A stretch of 64,000 bases of DNA from Pseudomonadota bacterium (GTDB lineage: Bacteria > Pseudomonadota > Gammaproteobacteria > Xanthomonadales > SZUA-38), in assembly GCA_039033415.1 (NCBI GenBank), contig JBCCCR010000009.1, forward strand, positions 62,001 through 126,000, written 5' to 3'. The notes below the pieces were generated by a model, which was not told the DNA's origin, searched no databases, and saw only the letters and a program-made list of their open reading frames with translations. Below are positions 41,828 to 51,251 of this stretch, in pieces (the first letter of the stretch is position 1; the number at the start of each line of letters is the position of its first letter). The position numbers and the translations under genes are program-made.

Positions 41828-42190
41828 GGGGGCGTACTGGCTTCGACGTCGGTCGCGAAACCGCAAGGTGCATGCCGAGGACGCAAGGATCCTCGTTAAT
41901 CCCGTTGCAAACTTATAGTTGCCAACGACGACAACTACGCACTCGCCGCCTAAAAACCGGTAGTTTGCCGTTCCACTGAGGCCGTGCCTGTGCGGCGCAG
42001 ATTCGGAACGTCACCTTTCACAGGATCGCGATGAAGCGCGCCCGGCGTGGATTCGTTAAAACCTATCCGGGACCGCTGTGCGTTTTCCCCGCCGTCAGGT
42101 AGCGCCCAGTTAAATTAAAGGACGGCTAAGCATGTAGATCCTGAGGCAGAGGACTGACGGACGCGGGTTCGACTCCCGCCGCCTCCACCA
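41828..42190 (+). ncRNA. ssrA: tmRNA (transfer-messenger RNA)
   Basis: About 363 nt. The tRNA-like acceptor is made by 5' GGGGGCG (41828) pairing with CGCCTCC before the encoded CCA (42188-42190), and the T-arm GGGTTCGACTCCC lies at 42165-42177. The tag reading frame is GCC-AAC-GAC-GAC-AAC-TAC-GCA-CTC-GCC-GCC-TAA at 41921-41953, giving ANDDNYALAA. With SmpB it rescues stalled ribosomes and tags peptides for ClpXP. The last 19 bp are the core at which the downstream island integrated. Confidence 0.97.
42172..42190 (+). repeat. attL: attL core (ssrA 3' end)
   Basis: 19 bp ending in CCTCCACCA, identical to 51233-51251. The ssrA gene is complete on this side. Confidence 0.92.
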
Positions 42191-42345: not shown

Positions 42346-42355
42346 TTGCCCCTAA
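42346..42355. repeat. Candidate integrase arm-type site, left 2, over the int start
   Basis: TTGCCCCTAA, the reverse complement of TTAGGGGCAA. It ends on the first base of the int ATG, so binding of the integrase here could shut off its own synthesis. Confidence 0.45.
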
Positions 42356-43542
42356 TGGCACGAACGACCACCCCGCTCACCGTCGCGGAAGTGAAAAACG
42401 CAAAGGCTGAGACGAAGAGCAAGAGACTGTTTGACGGCAGAGGCCTCTACCTGGAGGTAACGCCCAAAGGCGGGAAGTACTGGCGTTTCAAGTATCGGTT
42501 CGAAAATCGAGAGAAGCGAATCAGCCTGGGCACCTTTCCCGAGATCACCCTCGCCGAGGCCCGGGACCGACGAGAAGAAGCCAGGCGACAGGTCGCCCAC
42601 GGTATTGATCCCAGCGCCGTCCGAAAAGCGCAAGCTTCAGCCAATAAGGACTCGTTCGAGGCCATTGCAGCTGAGTGGATGATCCAGAAGGAAAAGGAGT
42701 TGTCGCCAGGTCATCTGAGAACGATCCGCTCCCGCCTGGACCGAGACATCTTGCCCTTCCTGGGCAAGAGTCCAATCACGAAAATCACCGCCCCAGACGT
42801 TCTCTCCGCGCTGCGACGAGTTGAGAATCGCGGCGCCATCGAGTCAGCCCACCGGATCAAGACTATCGTCAGCCAGGTTTTCCGCTACGCCATCAGCACT
42901 GGACAGGCCGTTTCGAACCCAGCACGCGACCTAGGTGACGCTCTGCCGAAAGCAAAGGCAAAGCACTTCCCAGCGATCACCAAACCGACCGAGGTTGCCG
43001 AGTTGCTCAAGACGATCGAGAACTACAAAGGTACGCTCATCGTATCCACAGCGCTCAAGCTCGCTCCTTTAGTCTTCGTCCGACCAGGGGAGTTGCGCCA
43101 CGCGAAATGGGAAGAAATAGACCTCGAATCTGCTGAATGGCGATTCATCGCAACGAAGACCAACACCGAGCATATCGTTCCGTTAGCGACTCAGGCAGTC
43201 AGCCTGCTGGAAAAAATCCAGATGGTGACCGACAGAGGCCCCTACGTTTTTCCGAGCGCGAGAACGCCGAAGGGAACCCGACCGATGAGTGACAATGCAC
43301 TTCTAGCGGCTTTTAGAAGATTGGGCATTCCCAAAGAGCGGATGACCGTGCACGGATTCCGTGCGATGGCCAGAACGCTCCTGGACGAGGAATTAGGGTT
43401 TGCACCTCACCTAATCGAGCATCAGCTTGCTCACGCCGTTCGCGACCCACTCGGGAGAGCATACAACCGGACAGCCCACCTAAACGAACGAAGAGCCATG
43501 ATGCAAGCGTGGGCTGACTATTTGGAGAAGTTACCGCGCTGA
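42355..43542 (+). CDS. int: P4-type tyrosine integrase
   Basis: 395 residues from ATG 42355 (TTG 42346 is in frame but precedes a non-conserved stretch). The N-terminal DUF4102 arm-binding domain (LTVAEVKNAKAETKSKRLFDGRGLYLEVTPKGGKYWRFKYRF) precedes a core-binding domain and the catalytic region with ARG-type RPGELRHAKWEEIDL, HGFRAMARTLLDEELG, HQLAHAVRDPLG and the Tyr in RAYNRTAHLNERRAMMQAW. Integrates the island at ssrA. First gene after the att core, as is usual. Confidence 0.95.
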   Translation: MARTTTPLTVAEVKNAKAETKSKRLFDGRGLYLEVTPKGGKYWRFKYRFENREKRISLGTFPEITLAEARDRREEARRQVAHGIDPSAVRKAQASANKDSFEAIAAEWMIQKEKELSPGHLRTIRSRLDRDILPFLGKSPITKITAPDVLSALRRVENRGAIESAHRIKTIVSQVFRYAISTGQAVSNPARDLGDALPKAKAKHFPAITKPTEVAELLKTIENYKGTLIVSTALKLAPLVFVRPGELRHAKWEEIDLESAEWRFIATKTNTEHIVPLATQAVSLLEKIQMVTDRGPYVFPSARTPKGTRPMSDNALLAAFRRLGIPKERMTVHGFRAMARTLLDEELGFAPHLIEHQLAHAVRDPLGRAYNRTAHLNERRAMMQAWADYLEKLPR

Positions 43543-43861: not shown

Positions 43862-46273
43862 TTACAAAGATCGAGGAGCGCCGAGCTTTATGTTTAGGAC
43901 CCCTCTTACTAAAGCGGATGCAGAACTCCAATAGGCGTGCCCAAATCCCTGACTACTATTCACGGCGCCAAACGGCGCCGCGGCCCAACGCGCAGCACGG
44001 CCAGTGTCAGCGAGAAAACGCATGATTTGATCCTCAATAAATTCGTTGGTCTGGAAATATGGAAACTGCCTGCCATGGCGAGCCTGTAGCGGAATTGCTG
44101 CAGCCACCTCTCCGCCATCTTTCGTTGCGTCAATAAGCGTTGGAAATAGCTTTGAAAATAAGTCGATCATTCCCGCATTGCCCCCTTCCGATGTGTTGAA
44201 TCCATAGGGCGGGTCGCCGATTATGAGATCTGCAAACTGTTTCATACGCGCCAAAACATCCAAACTGTCTTCAACGCTTACATATAAAATCCCGGATTCT
44301 GGAGATGAGACGAATTCGCGAATAATATTTTCCGCTTCACAGGAATCTTGCGGAGATGCAATTCTAAAACAAGAGTACTTTTGGATCTGGCTTTGAGCTA
44401 TTGTCGTATAACTTGAGAATATCTGCTTGCTATCAGTTTTTTTTGATAGTGAAAACAAACTCGGTTCGAGATGATGAAGATCGCCCTCATCCGCCAATCC
44501 GGTAGCCTTGTTGAGCTCTCGAATCAGAGCTGTCATCTCTGACTCCAGGAGACTAGCTAGTCTTTCTGGGTGCTGAGCTATGCTTGTGGCATTTAGATAG
44601 ATTCCGCGCCAAATTGCATAAACAAAGAGTCGTATCGACAATAGCTCTTCATCATCTGACGATAAAAACTCGAAGAGACTACGTGGGCCTCCGGCTTCGG
44701 ATAAGTCCGCTATTTTTGCAGCAAATTCTCTCCCGTCGTGGGCTTCTCCCAGAAAATCCAACGATCTATTGATCTCGTTTATCGCAAACTGAGTAGGGTA
44801 TGCGGTTGGATCTTTGATAGCCTCCGAATCGTAAGATTCAAGAATTCTATCGGGCGCCAAGTTCTCATCTGCTTCTCGAATTTTGCTGCAGATCATCGCC
44901 AAATTAAGTAGGCCCTTTGCCTGCGACATCTTTTCGATATTGCCGAAGAATCGAATGTTGTCTCGGGCCATGTAAGGGGCAATTATGTTTTTGTCCAATC
45001 CAATGATTTTCGCTCTCGGGAAACGTACCAAAGCGTCCATCAGGAAGCCTCCTGATCCAGCAAAAGGGTCCAAGATCACAAGTCCTTCGCCCCCGGTTTG
45101 GGCCTCCTCGCGGAGCTGTATCTCGCATGAATTAATGATGGCGGAGGACAACGTGGTTGGAATTGTGATTGGCGCGATCCAGCCCGGCTTCCGCTCTTTG
45201 AAAATGTTTAGAGGTGTTCCGTTCTTGAAGTATTGAGCATAGATTCCGAGATATTGCTTAGTACCCTTCCCGAATCGGTTGGATGTTGTATCGAGGTATA
45301 TGTCAAAGTCATTGATCATCCACACCGAACAATCGCTTCGACACTCCACATCTAGTTCCTCGTCATCGCCCGGCACCGGAATCACGACTTTGGAGCGGTG
45401 CTTTGCGCCAAGATCGGCCATAACACTTACTAGCGGAACGTCTTCGATGTAATACTTTCGCAAATCAATCTGTAACTCTGCTAAACCATTACGTGTTGAT
45501 AAGACGCTACCTTTTTTGCGCTTTTGACTGATGGTCGACTCAGAGAGTACGTTCACTAGCATTTTGTTCTTGTCGTCCTCGGGGCTGAAGCCGTCCAGAA
45601 ATTTCTCAAACGCCCGATAAACGTCGCCACCGAACATTTTGGACGAATTCCTATAAATAAGTGGAATTCCTGCTGAATGAGCATAGCCGCATTCCGCGAA
45701 AACTTTTCGAACATCGCAAAATAGAGTTTCTGGAAAGTGAATCAGTCCACTGCAAAAATATCGATCAAAAACAACGCTTTTCTCAAGGGTATCGCGATAC
45801 AAGCGCAAAAACCTCTGCACAAATTCAGTGCACTTTTCGACATAGCCCAAGGCTTCTTTACTGCTATCAATATTTATGTCGCTGAAGAAGAACTCATCTA
45901 TTCCGGCAGCCTTGTCTATCAGATCAGCAATTTCAATATCGGTGTAACACTTGATTGATATCCTACAATCCGCGGTGTGGCGGCTATGTTTATTGATTAG
46001 GTTTGCAAGCTCTATATAGAAGAGATTTGTGACATCAGCGTTCTTCTGTGAGACGAAAAACAATGAACCAGAATAGCGGGAGAAATCTGGGCTACTTGCA
46101 AACGAATTGTACGGATTCCTGTAGTACCAGTGTTTTTTCAGGCTGGTAACGAAGCGGGGTTTGCTACAGGTTCTCGTTTGCTCTTGGCTTCCCGAAAACG
46201 TCGACTCCTCCAACGCTTGATAAAGGGCTAGTTCAAGGCCATTGGAATCAGCAACTAGTTTGTCGAATAACAC
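43862..46273 (-). CDS. Large SAM-dependent amino-methyltransferase of unknown target
   Basis: 803 residues from GTG 46273, which has a strong GGGAGG ribosome site 5-8 nt upstream. Motif I DPFAGSGGF is at 402-410 and the next strand GLDKN at 425-429. The catalytic DPPY (IIGDPPYGFN) comes only at 687-690, about 260 residues later; in most amino-MTases the gap is under 100. The segment between, and the first about 390 residues, match no domain I know and may be target recognition or a regulatory lid. DPPY predicts N6-adenine or N4-cytosine methylation of DNA, or base methylation of RNA as in the Trm11/UPF0020 group. No restriction endonuclease is next to it. Divergent from the RNR-like gene. Confidence 0.75.
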   Translation of the reverse strand: MLFDKLVADSNGLELALYQALEESTFSGSQEQTRTCSKPRFVTSLKKHWYYRNPYNSFASSPDFSRYSGSLFFVSQKNADVTNLFYIELANLINKHSRHTADCRISIKCYTDIEIADLIDKAAGIDEFFFSDINIDSSKEALGYVEKCTEFVQRFLRLYRDTLEKSVVFDRYFCSGLIHFPETLFCDVRKVFAECGYAHSAGIPLIYRNSSKMFGGDVYRAFEKFLDGFSPEDDKNKMLVNVLSESTISQKRKKGSVLSTRNGLAELQIDLRKYYIEDVPLVSVMADLGAKHRSKVVIPVPGDDEELDVECRSDCSVWMINDFDIYLDTTSNRFGKGTKQYLGIYAQYFKNGTPLNIFKERKPGWIAPITIPTTLSSAIINSCEIQLREEAQTGGEGLVILDPFAGSGGFLMDALVRFPRAKIIGLDKNIIAPYMARDNIRFFGNIEKMSQAKGLLNLAMICSKIREADENLAPDRILESYDSEAIKDPTAYPTQFAINEINRSLDFLGEAHDGREFAAKIADLSEAGGPRSLFEFLSSDDEELLSIRLFVYAIWRGIYLNATSIAQHPERLASLLESEMTALIRELNKATGLADEGDLHHLEPSLFSLSKKTDSKQIFSSYTTIAQSQIQKYSCFRIASPQDSCEAENIIREFVSSPESGILYVSVEDSLDVLARMKQFADLIIGDPPYGFNTSEGGNAGMIDLFSKLFPTLIDATKDGGEVAAAIPLQARHGRQFPYFQTNEFIEDQIMRFLADTGRAARWAAAPFGAVNSSQGFGHAYWSSASALVRGVLNIKLGAPRSL

Positions 46274-46391: not shown

Positions 46392-47900
46392 ATGCCACTC
46401 GAAAAACCAACTCAAACGGCATTAGGTTTGCCGCAGCGAGACTACGATATTCTCGGGGAGACGCTCTCTGACGCAATGCGTCGAATAAGAAATGCGTGTT
46501 TCGACGACCGCTATCAGAATCTGGTCAATAAGGTAGCCAACTCAAGTACTGGCGCGTCGAGGTTTGCAGACCGAGTCAATAACCGACAAGTGGTTCCAGG
46601 GACGCCAATCCTGCTCAATATGGGAGCTCCCTCGCTCGCTTTGGCTTCCTGTACGGCTCGAGCGGTTTCGTGCGACTGGTCTGCCAGCGCCCTATTGAAA
46701 GACTGCCTGCATGCGCATCGACATGGCATCGGTGTCGGGTTTGACTTGGACAAGCTGCAAGACCCGGTGGGATTTTTGAATGAATCAAATAGAGTGTTTT
46801 TAAGGCAACACTCACAGGAGAATCTCAAGAGACCTGTTGGCGATTCGGCTTCCCTCTATTGGAACCATCCAGATATCGCGGCATTCGTCGAAATCAAGAA
46901 CTCAGACCCATCCCAGAAATGGCTTGCAAACTTTTCAGTAAAGCTCGATCAGGCATTCTTCGACAAAGTCAAGACTTGTGGCAAGACCTCACGGCTTCTA
47001 GACAGAATCGCCTACTCTGCCTGGCTCACCGGAGATCCAGGTGTAATTTTTTCGGATCGACTCAACAAGAAAGAGCTACCTGGAAATCCATACACAACGG
47101 TGGCCCCATGTGGTGAAACAGGACTGATGGATGGCGATCTTTGCCACTTTGCGTATGTCAATTTGAACGCGTTTTTCAAGAAAAATCGAGAGATTGATTT
47201 CCGGAGGCTCCGATCAGCCGTGCACGATACCGTTGACTTCCTGGACTATTGTTTGTGTTGGACAAGCTTTCAATCAGGCTATCAATACAAGCTTGATATG
47301 CTCAGCGAAAGAAAGCGGATAGCTGTGGGAATCTGCGGCTATTCTGATGCTCTTCATAAAACCAATACCAACTACGGCTCCCACAGAGCGTTGGTTTTGG
47401 CAGAAACATTGATGGCCGCGGTTAACCTATTCTCAAAGGAGAGGTCGGCTCAACTAGCGAAGTGCCCAAGTGATCAAGATATTGGACCGACCTATGCCCC
47501 TAAAAACACTCGACTAGGGCTTGGAATAAGATCTGGCCTGGTACGCAAAGCAAGTACCTTCGTGAAGGCCAATCGCACAAAGCACAGCACCACTACCGCG
47601 ATTCCACCTTCTGGCCGTGCCGCCAGAGTGATAGGCGCATCTCCGAGCCTAGAGGCGTATGCGCCTGGAGCACCAAACACAATTAGCATTGTGCCAGTTC
47701 TGGACCAACTGAATACGACAAATGCTTTCTTAAAATATGTCGATGAATCAGTCTCAAAGACAGTCCACCTCAAAAATTCTGCGACGGTAACTGACGCAAA
47801 GAATGTGATTACGGCAGCGTGGAAGTCTGGCCTAAAGTCAATTTCAATATACCGAGATGGCTGTCGACATGACCAACCTTTTCCCATGTGCGTTACCTAA
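46392..47900 (+). CDS. Compact class-II ribonucleotide reductase-like protein with altered active site
   Basis: 502 residues; class II NrdJ enzymes are usually 600-1000. Family features: GTPILLNMG and LASC (Cys87, the redox Cys), GIGVGFDLDKL, WLTGDPGVIFSDRLN, APCGE (238-242), Cys251 11 residues after the thiyl Cys240 as in NrdJ, and the C-terminal YVDESVSKTVHLKNSATV ... SISIYRDGCR. Known enzymes read NPCGE; the Asn is Ala238 here, and the phosphate loop APTGT-type reads PPSGR. Cys240 and Glu242 remain. A Cys-x9-Cys tail (GCRHDQPFPMC) could be a redox tail. Normal NDP/NTP reduction is therefore doubtful; it may act on a modified nucleotide or sense nucleotides. Co-transcribed with the Nudix gene 3 nt downstream. 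No ATP-cone and no NrdB partner are visible. Confidence 0.8.
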   Translation: MPLEKPTQTALGLPQRDYDILGETLSDAMRRIRNACFDDRYQNLVNKVANSSTGASRFADRVNNRQVVPGTPILLNMGAPSLALASCTARAVSCDWSASALLKDCLHAHRHGIGVGFDLDKLQDPVGFLNESNRVFLRQHSQENLKRPVGDSASLYWNHPDIAAFVEIKNSDPSQKWLANFSVKLDQAFFDKVKTCGKTSRLLDRIAYSAWLTGDPGVIFSDRLNKKELPGNPYTTVAPCGETGLMDGDLCHFAYVNLNAFFKKNREIDFRRLRSAVHDTVDFLDYCLCWTSFQSGYQYKLDMLSERKRIAVGICGYSDALHKTNTNYGSHRALVLAETLMAAVNLFSKERSAQLAKCPSDQDIGPTYAPKNTRLGLGIRSGLVRKASTFVKANRTKHSTTTAIPPSGRAARVIGASPSLEAYAPGAPNTISIVPVLDQLNTTNAFLKYVDESVSKTVHLKNSATVTDAKNVITAAWKSGLKSISIYRDGCRHDQPFPMCVT

Positions 47901-47903
47901 TCC

Positions 47904-48353
47904 ATGTCTTCTAACGCGCTGCAGAGCATTATTTGCCCAAAGCTTTGCTTGCTTAACCCGGCGTCAAAAGAGTTTTTGCTCTGCAAGAGAAAAGGAGAAG
48001 CGGACTTTGACCGCACCTATTCTTTTCCCGGCGGTAAAACAGAATTGTCCGACGAGTCGATTGAGGCCGGTATCCAGCGAGAGTTAGCCGAGGAACTTGG
48101 ATCAGTCTTTGCTTACGAACTTTCCTCCCAACTGTGTTTCCTAGTTGAGTACGTCAGAAGTGACAGCAAACATATGACTCTGCCTCACTTCTTCGGCGTT
48201 GCTTCAAAGGAGCAACACATCGATCTTAACGCAGAAGAATACAATGACTATGCTTGGACTCGGATAGAGGACATGGCGAAAATATCAGTAATCAAGAATG
48301 TACCAATGATCTGCGCCCTGCACCCTCTATTGAGCGCTCAGCGTGTTCAGTAG
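47904..48353 (+). CDS. Nudix hydrolase
   Basis: 149 residues. Nudix box GKTELSDESIEAGIQRELAEELG is seen (G, then six instead of the usual five residues, then E-x7-REL-x-EEL), so a one-residue insertion in the loop. Metal-dependent pyrophosphohydrolase on a nucleoside diphosphate-X. Its start is 3 nt after the RNR-like stop, so the pair is almost certainly co-translated and may share a nucleotide substrate. Convergent with the peptidase gene, 51 bp apart. Confidence 0.9.
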   Translation: MSSNALQSIICPKLCLLNPASKEFLLCKRKGEADFDRTYSFPGGKTELSDESIEAGIQRELAEELGSVFAYELSSQLCFLVEYVRSDSKHMTLPHFFGVASKEQHIDLNAEEYNDYAWTRIEDMAKISVIKNVPMICALHPLLSAQRVQ

Positions 48354-48404: not shown

Positions 48405-50675
48405 CTAATCAACATCCACGAAGATCTCGTTAGCAGAGTCGGTAAATCCCCTTGAATCCAGAAAACGCTTGACCGCCTCTACTTCAGAAGGGCCACGATT
48501 CTCTTTATCCATTGCGTAACGGCCAGAATTATTGTTGAGGCTCCATCGTTCATCTAGAAATCGCAACTCGCCGGCAATTCTTGCGGGCGCGCCGTTGATA
48601 AGAGTCGGATGCCCAAGCTCCATTGGCGTTCCGTCAGAATCCTCGCCAATTACATCCAGGCTCCCGACGTAAATGTCACCAAACTCGTCAACCACCCAGT
48701 TATAGACGGTCTGTCGGTCCAACTGTTTGAGAGTCACTTCAACGTCGACAGAGTAGTTGCGCGATATACAAAAATGCTGAGCAGGCTTCCTCAATTCGTA
48801 AAGGTTCTTTTCCTCGTGAGAGTAGATTTCAGTCGGAAACGCCAAGTCCCCGAAAATTCTGTCTGCTAGTGGGAGACGCTGGCGCTGCTTTATAAACTGC
48901 TCCCAAGCCAAAAGCATATCCAGAGTCTCCGCACTACTCTCGAATTCTTGCTTAGTTGTTTTTAGCCCCATTGATTCGTAGGCCAGGGTCAACCGACGAA
49001 ACCATTCTGTGTCATGGGAAACAACGCCAATCATTCCCGCGCTAATCGTTTCGCTAGCTCCGCCCGATGACGAAGTCGCGTCCACTAAAATGTCGAAACG
49101 AGTAATCGTTTCTGTTCTATATCGGATGCACCAAAAGAATCTCGGCAGTCGAGAAACCAGCAACTCAAACATTTCATCTTTCAAGTCCTCTGATTGGACC
49201 TGCTTTGATACGTCAAGCATCTCAGCTTTGTAGTCGTTCTGGTCTACGAGGAAAAGCTCCCAGCATGCCTCGTTCTGCATTGTCCAGTAAGGATCTGAGC
49301 CAATCAGCATTATTAGTGATTGAATATAGCGCCGAAACCGGAGCAAGTCTTCGAGGACTTGGCGGAATGGATTTCTAATCTTATGGTATAAGCCCAGGTG
49401 AACCGTACGCGGAACATAAACCAAATCATCCACTAAGTTACCCGCGTTACTCTTGCCGCCGGAGCCTGTATCTACGACATAGGGGCAAAGCACCTCTAGA
49501 ACGTCGCCTTCACTATTTTCTACGGCTTCGAAAGTAAGTCTCGCGAATGGACCAAGCGCGTCATCGTGACAGTAAAGCTTACGAATGGAGCAAGCTGAGT
49601 TTCGATGGCCGTAAAGTTCAGAACCAGGGTCGCCGGCGATCCTCAAGTCCTCAGCGTACTCGAATCCAGTTACGGTAATCAGGTGCCCATCAAGCTTTGG
49701 CCCCAGTTTCCCATCGCAGCGTTTGTACACGTCTACCCCCAGCAATAGAGGCTCCCTTTTTCGGGCTTGGTAGGCGTAAATGAGCGCTCTGAGGCGGTTG
49801 TTTCTGAAACTTGGTGAGTTTTTACTGTCCACCCTCGTTGGCGACACGGCGTATTGAACATACTCCAGATCAAATGCCGCGAGGGCATTTTTTACCAAGT
49901 CGGGAGTGAGACCATGTGTCCCGGAAAGCCGGAAGTCCTTTGCACGCCCCCATGATTGGGCCATTCGGGTGATGCTAGATGGTGATGGAATTTGTGTTTT
50001 TCGTGATGTCGGTACGCCATAAAAGTAGGACCACAACGCGCTTGATGCGCATGCGGCTACCGAACTGTCTTGCTCTTGAAACGGCAGGGTGGTCGGGATA
50101 GTTAGTTCCAATCCGAACAGGTTGACTGATTCCGACGTCGTAGTTTTGTATTCCCTGGAGAGTGCGCGCGAATCGCACTCGTCAGTTGCTTTATCGCCGG
50201 GAGAATAAGTATTTAGGCAAGTCCGTCCTACGAGTGCATTTTCGAGTGGCCGCACTACGACGAACCCGAGGTAGGCCTCGCTTAAAGAGGATTGAGACAA
50301 CGACGTCTCGGCTTGTCCTCTTATCAGCGCGATCAACTCTTTGCGGTAGAACGGCCTATTGTGGCTGGGATTCGCCTTCCCGCTAAAAAAATGCAGCCGG
50401 GTGCACAGTTTCCCAAAGTCGCGATGGCTTCGGACGTGGAAATTCGCGTAGTCTTCGAGAAAGTGCCGGTCTACGTATTCCTTTTCAATTACTACTGAAA
50501 GAGCTTTTTGTCGCGACAGATATCCGATGAGGTAAGAGACTTGTTTCTTTCGGAATATTGCCCGCAAATCCACATTCGAGCCAGCTAGAACTTGGCGAAC
50601 GATGCGGCCAAAAAGCGGCTTGGAAAATCCACAAACCTGTAAGCGGTCGTTGTAAAGAGGCAACTTCCCAATCAT
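48405..50675 (-). CDS. Unknown 756-residue protein with papain/C39-like cysteine peptidase core
   Basis: No signal peptide or membrane segment. Residues about 195-350 contain a papain-type pattern: FQEQDSSVAACASSALW, with Gln202 and Cys209, then DGHLITVTGF (His331) and AGDPGS (Asp349), in the order oxyanion-Gln, Cys, His, Asp. The remaining about 190 N-terminal and 400 C-terminal residues match nothing I recognise; the C-terminal part looks like a mixed alpha/beta domain with a possible sensor role. C39 transporters cut leader peptides, but no ABC transporter or membrane part is here. Function not assigned; a proteolytic effector is one possibility. 40 bp downstream of the 54-residue gene. 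Confidence 0.6.
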   Translation of the reverse strand: MIGKLPLYNDRLQVCGFSKPLFGRIVRQVLAGSNVDLRAIFRKKQVSYLIGYLSRQKALSVVIEKEYVDRHFLEDYANFHVRSHRDFGKLCTRLHFFSGKANPSHNRPFYRKELIALIRGQAETSLSQSSLSEAYLGFVVVRPLENALVGRTCLNTYSPGDKATDECDSRALSREYKTTTSESVNLFGLELTIPTTLPFQEQDSSVAACASSALWSYFYGVPTSRKTQIPSPSSITRMAQSWGRAKDFRLSGTHGLTPDLVKNALAAFDLEYVQYAVSPTRVDSKNSPSFRNNRLRALIYAYQARKREPLLLGVDVYKRCDGKLGPKLDGHLITVTGFEYAEDLRIAGDPGSELYGHRNSACSIRKLYCHDDALGPFARLTFEAVENSEGDVLEVLCPYVVDTGSGGKSNAGNLVDDLVYVPRTVHLGLYHKIRNPFRQVLEDLLRFRRYIQSLIMLIGSDPYWTMQNEACWELFLVDQNDYKAEMLDVSKQVQSEDLKDEMFELLVSRLPRFFWCIRYRTETITRFDILVDATSSSGGASETISAGMIGVVSHDTEWFRRLTLAYESMGLKTTKQEFESSAETLDMLLAWEQFIKQRQRLPLADRIFGDLAFPTEIYSHEEKNLYELRKPAQHFCISRNYSVDVEVTLKQLDRQTVYNWVVDEFGDIYVGSLDVIGEDSDGTPMELGHPTLINGAPARIAGELRFLDERWSLNNNSGRYAMDKENRGPSEVEAVKRFLDSRGFTDSANEIFVDVD

Positions 50676-51232: not shown

Positions 51233-51251
51233 ACTCCCGCCGCCTCCACCA
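51233..51251 (+). repeat. attR: attR core (displaced ssrA 3' end)
   Basis: Exact 19-bp copy of the ssrA 3' end; the bases on either side differ. Confidence 0.92.

Follow-up and report, generated by a model that had tools for sequence, protein, structure and literature searches.

The RNR-like gene of the window (the whole stretch of 64,000 nucleotides that was analysed) belongs to a rare and hitherto unnamed branch of ribonucleotide reductases (RNRs), and is not a lone decayed copy. From comparison of the sequences we lean towards a functional, neofunctionalised class II AdoCbl-dependent enzyme, which would act on a non-standard nucleotide substrate and whose sugar-modified product would be used in genetic conflict. 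The protein probably acts within a mobile conflict cassette, and its product there is probably an unusual nucleotide that may serve in antiviral defence; of these steps, the antiviral one is the least certain.

Active site of the APCGE protein

The gene and the codons of its active-site positions are located as follows.

46392-47900, + strand: class II RNR-like protein (APCGE), 502 aa, ORF intact
46650-46652, + strand: C87 codon, first Cys of the redox pair; Cys in 9 of 9 family and 27 of 27 canonical proteins
46830-46841, + strand: loop 2 codons R147-P148-V149-G150 (canonical RRGA), from column comparison
47103-47105, + strand: Ala238 codon (canonical Asn), from the pattern match at 47103 and column comparison
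47109-47111, + strand: C240 codon, thiyl Cys, invariant
47115-47117, + strand: E242 codon, general base Glu, invariant
47142-47144, + strand: C251 codon, second Cys of the redox pair, invariant
47604-47618, + strand: phosphate loop codons P405-P-S-G-R409 (canonical APTGT/S), from column comparison

The 502-aa protein matched Pfam PF02867 (3.6e-36, 125 bits, cut-off 23.9), and its nearest NCBIfam model was TIGR02504 NrdJ, with 195.4 bits, far below the equivalog cut-off of 399.95. The AlphaFold2 model (pLDDT 70.2, pTM 0.77, weak in residues 358-400 and 422-432) aligned with the T. maritima NrdJ structure 1XJE over 458 residues, with a Z score of 33.0 and an rmsd of 3.0. These results agree with the initial annotation of the gene, made from its sequence, as a class II RNR relative. 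The protein is also shorter than NrdJ, as had been pointed out there, but NrdJ-type proteins ranged from about 600 to 1000 aa in this analysis, so the short length alone says little. A frameshift was considered as the cause of the divergent residues 357-395 and was not supported, since the other two frames gave no better reading of this stretch. The APCGE codon pattern was present in none of 100 shuffles of the window. The source genome also encodes a canonical NrdJ, as well as other proteins with a B12 domain, and at least three relatives come from genomes that have a second RNR or an NrdD; the RNR-like protein is therefore an extra enzyme. PADLOC gave no match for the RNR-like proteins of the window, L052, L053 and L027.

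By phmmer, residues 198-358 aligned with 278-437 of 1XJE, in a register that places A238 on N320, C240 on C322, E242 on E324 and C251 on C333. A238 does not fall outside the Asn position, and the reading of the motif as NPCGE with Ala for Asn, with the Cys, the Glu and the spacing to C251 kept, holds. In 1XJE, Asn320 and Glu324 bind the substrate 3'-OH (PMC4728125, Table 4), and the loop 2 Arg207 of T. maritima (Arg298 in E. coli) reaches the substrate phosphate (PMC4728125).

The active-site columns were compared between nine family proteins and 27 comparison proteins, the Tistrella and viral contig proteins being added later (11 in all). C87, C240, E242 and C251 are invariant in all 11 of these diverged family-type proteins, including the Hyphomicrobiales protein L027. 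Position 238 is Ala in eight and Pro in one of the nine family proteins, and Asn in 25 of the 27 canonical ones; to our knowledge, nearly all class I and class II RNRs have this Asn of NPCGE. In loop 2, residues 148-150 are PVG in the family versus RGA in the canonical proteins, of which all 27 have the loop 2 Arg; the window protein retains R147, which could stand in for it. Position 405 is Pro in the family versus Ala, and position 409 is Arg in all nine family proteins versus Thr or Ser. With the Tistrella and viral contig proteins the latter count became nine Arg and two Thr, and Arg at 409 is thus not universal in the family. A238 and P148 hold across the 11 proteins with one exception each, both in L054. 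The changes at 148-150, 238 and 405 are coordinated in the family, and the phosphate loop of the window protein is PPSGR versus the canonical [A/P]PTG[T/S], altered as first described.

The family proteins end 39-58 residues past the SKT motif, without CxxC, and most comparison proteins have further C-terminal Cys. The tail of the window protein, of 48 aa, contains no CxxC and two lone Cys, C489 and C500. With the C-terminal Cys tail absent, C87 and C251 would exchange electrons with another reductant, or the reaction would differ.

The retained chemistry together with the rebuilt pocket suggests an active enzyme with another substrate than the standard nucleotide, while the use of cobalamin would follow from family membership. 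Between the two options first offered, an inactive sensor or decoy and an enzyme with a different substrate, these comparisons favour the second, as the radical and redox residues are invariant and the substrate-contact elements have changed together.

Relatives and phylogeny

Similarity scans of viral contigs, genome contigs and 299 genomes of the order gave no close relative of the window protein, and most of the proteins retrieved with NF005401 were ordinary NrdJ-like ones. Because direct scans gave no close relative, codon patterns were used, with a non-Asn first residue in xPCGExxLxxxxxC....[VI]NL. Ten stretches matched among 84,980 species genomes, and five of them (L026, L029, L032, L034 and L035) encode proteins matching the window protein at 1e-42 to 1e-78. 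The matches L028, L030, L031 and L033 do not belong to the family: they are partial ORFs or RNRs of another kind in which a residue is changed. L030 has DPCGE in an ordinary-looking NrdJ, and a viral NrdJ outside the clade (L025, 1-1539) has YPCGE for NPCGE, so isolated Asn substitutions also occur in ordinary-looking NrdJ. Several Micrarchaeota matches at 1e-86 to 1e-105 were rejected as canonical NPCGE or NPCSE enzymes.

Additional members were found in a patescibacterial genome (L048/L049), in a second one with APCAE (L064/L065), on the conjugative plasmid pTM3 of Tistrella mobilis (L068) and on a viral contig (L097). The search for more members with the substitution thus gave nine relatives in all, from Patescibacteria-type MAGs, one Micrarchaeon, pTM3 and the viral contig, in which the loss of Asn is kept, plus an eleventh protein, L027, that shares APCGE and has PPTGR. 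Members occurred in 1 of 299 Pseudomonadota genomes and in 2 of 380 Patescibacteria, one of those two being the search centre.

In a tree computed with the trait columns removed, the ten members including the window protein lie on one side of a branch with support 99/99. L027 falls outside this clade on a very long branch; a single origin of L027 with the clade gave an AU p of 0.09, and L027 was left out of the clade count. Across the ten members, Asn is replaced by Ala (once by Pro), the loop 2 RRGA by RP(V/A), and the phosphate loop reads PP[TSG]G[R/T]. The window copy is the most divergent member, with an end branch of 2.75.

A compact, active NrdJ, in which another residue or a main-chain contact replaces Asn and which makes ordinary deoxynucleotides for a mobile element or under stress, is not a likely account of this clade. 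It would fit the retention of every chemistry residue, the activity of class III RNR with other contacts replacing Asn and Glu (PMC4493059) and the frequency of RNR genes in phages. However, the alterations affect three separate substrate-contact elements together and persist in the clade, and the proteins lack the C-terminal redox Cys tail. In addition, a canonical RNR is already encoded by several of the host genomes, and the Nudix, GreA and kinase neighbours described below are absent from the 17 ordinary NrdJ loci that were searched.

Gene neighbourhoods and the ssrA island

Nucleotide or transcription genes are present in all 11 neighbourhoods. Kinases occur in eight (in one of them fused), Nudix genes in seven (including the S-NUDIX of L027), GreA-like genes in four and CYTH genes in three. 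NMP-kinase-like genes adjoin L051, L052, L054, L065 and L027, a kinase-like domain is fused in front in L050, and PfkB kinases are found at L068 and L097. Nudix genes lie at L050, L052, L065 (three times), L068, L097 and in the window, CYTH genes at L049, L051 and L053, and proteins with a GreA/GreB C-terminal domain at L049, L050, L052 and L054; at L097, the PfkB and Nudix genes were assigned by their similarity to those at L068. L051 also has a weak nucleoside deoxyribosyltransferase-like gene beside it, and a similar gene is present at L049. Neighbour content differs between lineages. Within 4 kb of 17 canonical NrdJ loci, the same profile search detected neither Nudix nor GreA-like nor NMP-kinase genes. 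This control is only indicative, since the neighbours of the family itself supplied the profiles.

The tip of canonical GreA carries two acidic residues. The GreA-like proteins of the family have a [WF]HD motif where the coiled-coil tip would be, and given this motif they may be a variant class. Two family kinases match PADLOC PDC-M51B (1.5e-29 and 1.6e-24), the PADLOC names VakA and PDC-M51B not being used as proof. Effector-type genes are present in two cassettes, namely a TIR PF10137 gene at L068, whose match is just under the Pfam cut-off (24.6 versus 24.7 bits), and a 2TM-Sa_NUDIX gene at L027.

The Hyphomicrobiales operon (L027, 2827-6597) has the order kinase, APCGE RNR-like, DUF402, 2TM-Sa_NUDIX, and its last protein matches PADLOC DRT and CBASS effector models. 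The Tistrella operon (L071, 7850-12787; pTM3 512849-517786) has four genes, Nudix, APCAE RNR-like, PfkB and TIR-like.

The window copy lies in an element bounded by 19-bp repeats, with the following features.

41828-42190, strand not given: tmRNA (ssrA), by ARAGORN
42172-42190, no strand: attL, last 19 bp of the tmRNA (ssrA) gene, identical direct repeat at 51233-51251
42346-43542, + strand: tyrosine-recombinase integrase of the island (Pfam Phage_integrase, Phage_int_M, Arm-DNA-bind_3)
43862-46273, - strand: methyltransferase-like protein, 803 aa, cargo (weak UPF0020, 2.5e-5; PADLOC mad2, 1.7e-8)
47904-48353, + strand: Nudix hydrolase (Pfam NUDIX, 1.3e-11)
48405-50675, - strand: 756-aa protein, cargo, no Pfam family above cut-off
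51233-51251, no strand: attR, 19-bp copy of the tmRNA 3' end, direct repeat

The att repeats bound a complete element of 9.06 kb with its own integrase, and its GC content is 0.49 versus 0.62 in the flanks. Another genome of the genus carries BREX genes (brxL, pglZ, pglX; L095, 1-10701) downstream of this ssrA, which places the island at a site used for defence cargo. The 803-aa protein had no relative among 72,556 plasmids. The 756-aa protein may be a conflict protein that has not yet been characterised. Relatives that align with most of it, at about 25% identity, are encoded on plasmids of Shewanella and Pseudomonas; the one on Shewanella pS19501 adjoins a TrlF-family gene, and the one on P. 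aeruginosa p4782_002 adjoins multiubiquitin/ThiF genes.

The Nudix gene starts (ATG at 47904) 3 nt after the RNR-like stop at 47900, as initially annotated, and its product shares 35-37% identity (about 1e-25) with the Nudix proteins encoded beside the patescibacterial relatives L052 and L065. The RNR-like/Nudix pairing is therefore conserved across phyla, consistent with the specialised nucleotide role that had been proposed from it. No kinase was found in the window island and no GreA partner was detected; as this copy is also the most divergent, it may have degenerated or may depend on enzymes of the host.

Less likely again than a compact NrdJ is a salvage, house-cleaning or special-precursor pathway, in which the RNR-like enzyme, the kinase and the Nudix protein remove or build a modified nucleotide with no conflict involved. 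In its favour, the contigs of most relatives belong to small genomes and show no visible effector genes, and genes of the Nudix, CYTH and deoxyribosyltransferase-like kinds are typically found in sanitising pathways; against it stand the rare and scattered occurrence reported above and the fact that members are carried by an island, by a conjugative plasmid and by a viral contig. An inactive sensor or decoy, binding nucleotides (or cobalamin) and signalling without turnover, is quite improbable, for although Asn is lost, E. coli N437 variants are reportedly inactive and two relatives adjoin effector-type genes, the invariance of the thiyl Cys, the Glu and both redox Cys in all 11 diverged proteins is unexpected without radical chemistry.

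Proposed mechanism and comparison with known systems

For the preferred reading, an active enzyme with another substrate, cobalamin cleavage would generate a thiyl radical at C240, which would abstract H3' from a nucleotide other than a standard NDP, with E242 as the base and C87 and C251 giving or taking electrons. The kinase-enzyme-Nudix set points to a nucleotide product needing charging and removal: the substrate or product would be supplied or charged by the partner kinase, and its hydrolysis by the Nudix (or CYTH) protein would serve sanitation or immunity. The outcome would be a sugar-modified nucleotide for genetic conflict, for example a poison of viral polymerases, from which the GreA-like factors of four relatives may rescue the cell's own RNA polymerase. 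In the window, the RNR-like and Nudix pair is cargo of the 9-kb integrative island. The antiviral reading is suggested by the mobile carriage, the effector-type genes in two cassettes, the PADLOC candidate matches of the kinases and the GreA-like genes. As a whole, a conflict cassette in which a cobalamin RNR derivative makes a polymerase-poisoning sugar-modified nucleotide, a kinase charges it, Nudix or CYTH destroys it and a GreA-like factor rescues RNA polymerase, as the cobalamin counterpart of viperin, is a tentative and rather doubtful proposal. Literature searches found no description of such a cassette, which does not show that there is none.

A clade that drops the Asn yet keeps every radical residue is a natural test of the role of Asn, and also of the capacity of the RNR scaffold for other chemistry. 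Should the product prove to be an antiviral nucleotide, this would be a new radical enzyme family for nucleotide-based immunity. The question is testable, as a complete four-gene version is present in a named isolate, Tistrella mobilis KA081020-065.

Compared with NrdJ (T. maritima 1XJE; TIGR02504), the window protein shares the fold, the thiyl Cys, the Glu, the redox Cys pair and PF02867, and differs by Ala for Asn320, by Pro-Val for Arg207-Gly208 of loop 2 in the alignment, by PPSGR, by the absence of a C-terminal CxxC tail and by a score well under the 400-bit equivalog cut-off. NrdD, the class III RNR, works without the Asn/Glu contact pair (PMC4493059), but it is a glycyl radical enzyme with another sequence and motif, whereas the RNR-like protein has the class II PCGE and Glu. 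With viperin-type synthesis (pVip and kinases) the likeness would be one of proposed logic only, that is, a radical enzyme acting on a nucleotide, a dedicated kinase, found here beside or fused to the enzyme in eight of 11 cases but not in the window island, and mobile DNA. The enzyme family differs and another cofactor is expected, the radical SAM CxxxCxxC motif being absent from the 502-aa sequence by inspection and no radical SAM family being matched in Pfam, NCBIfam or PADLOC.
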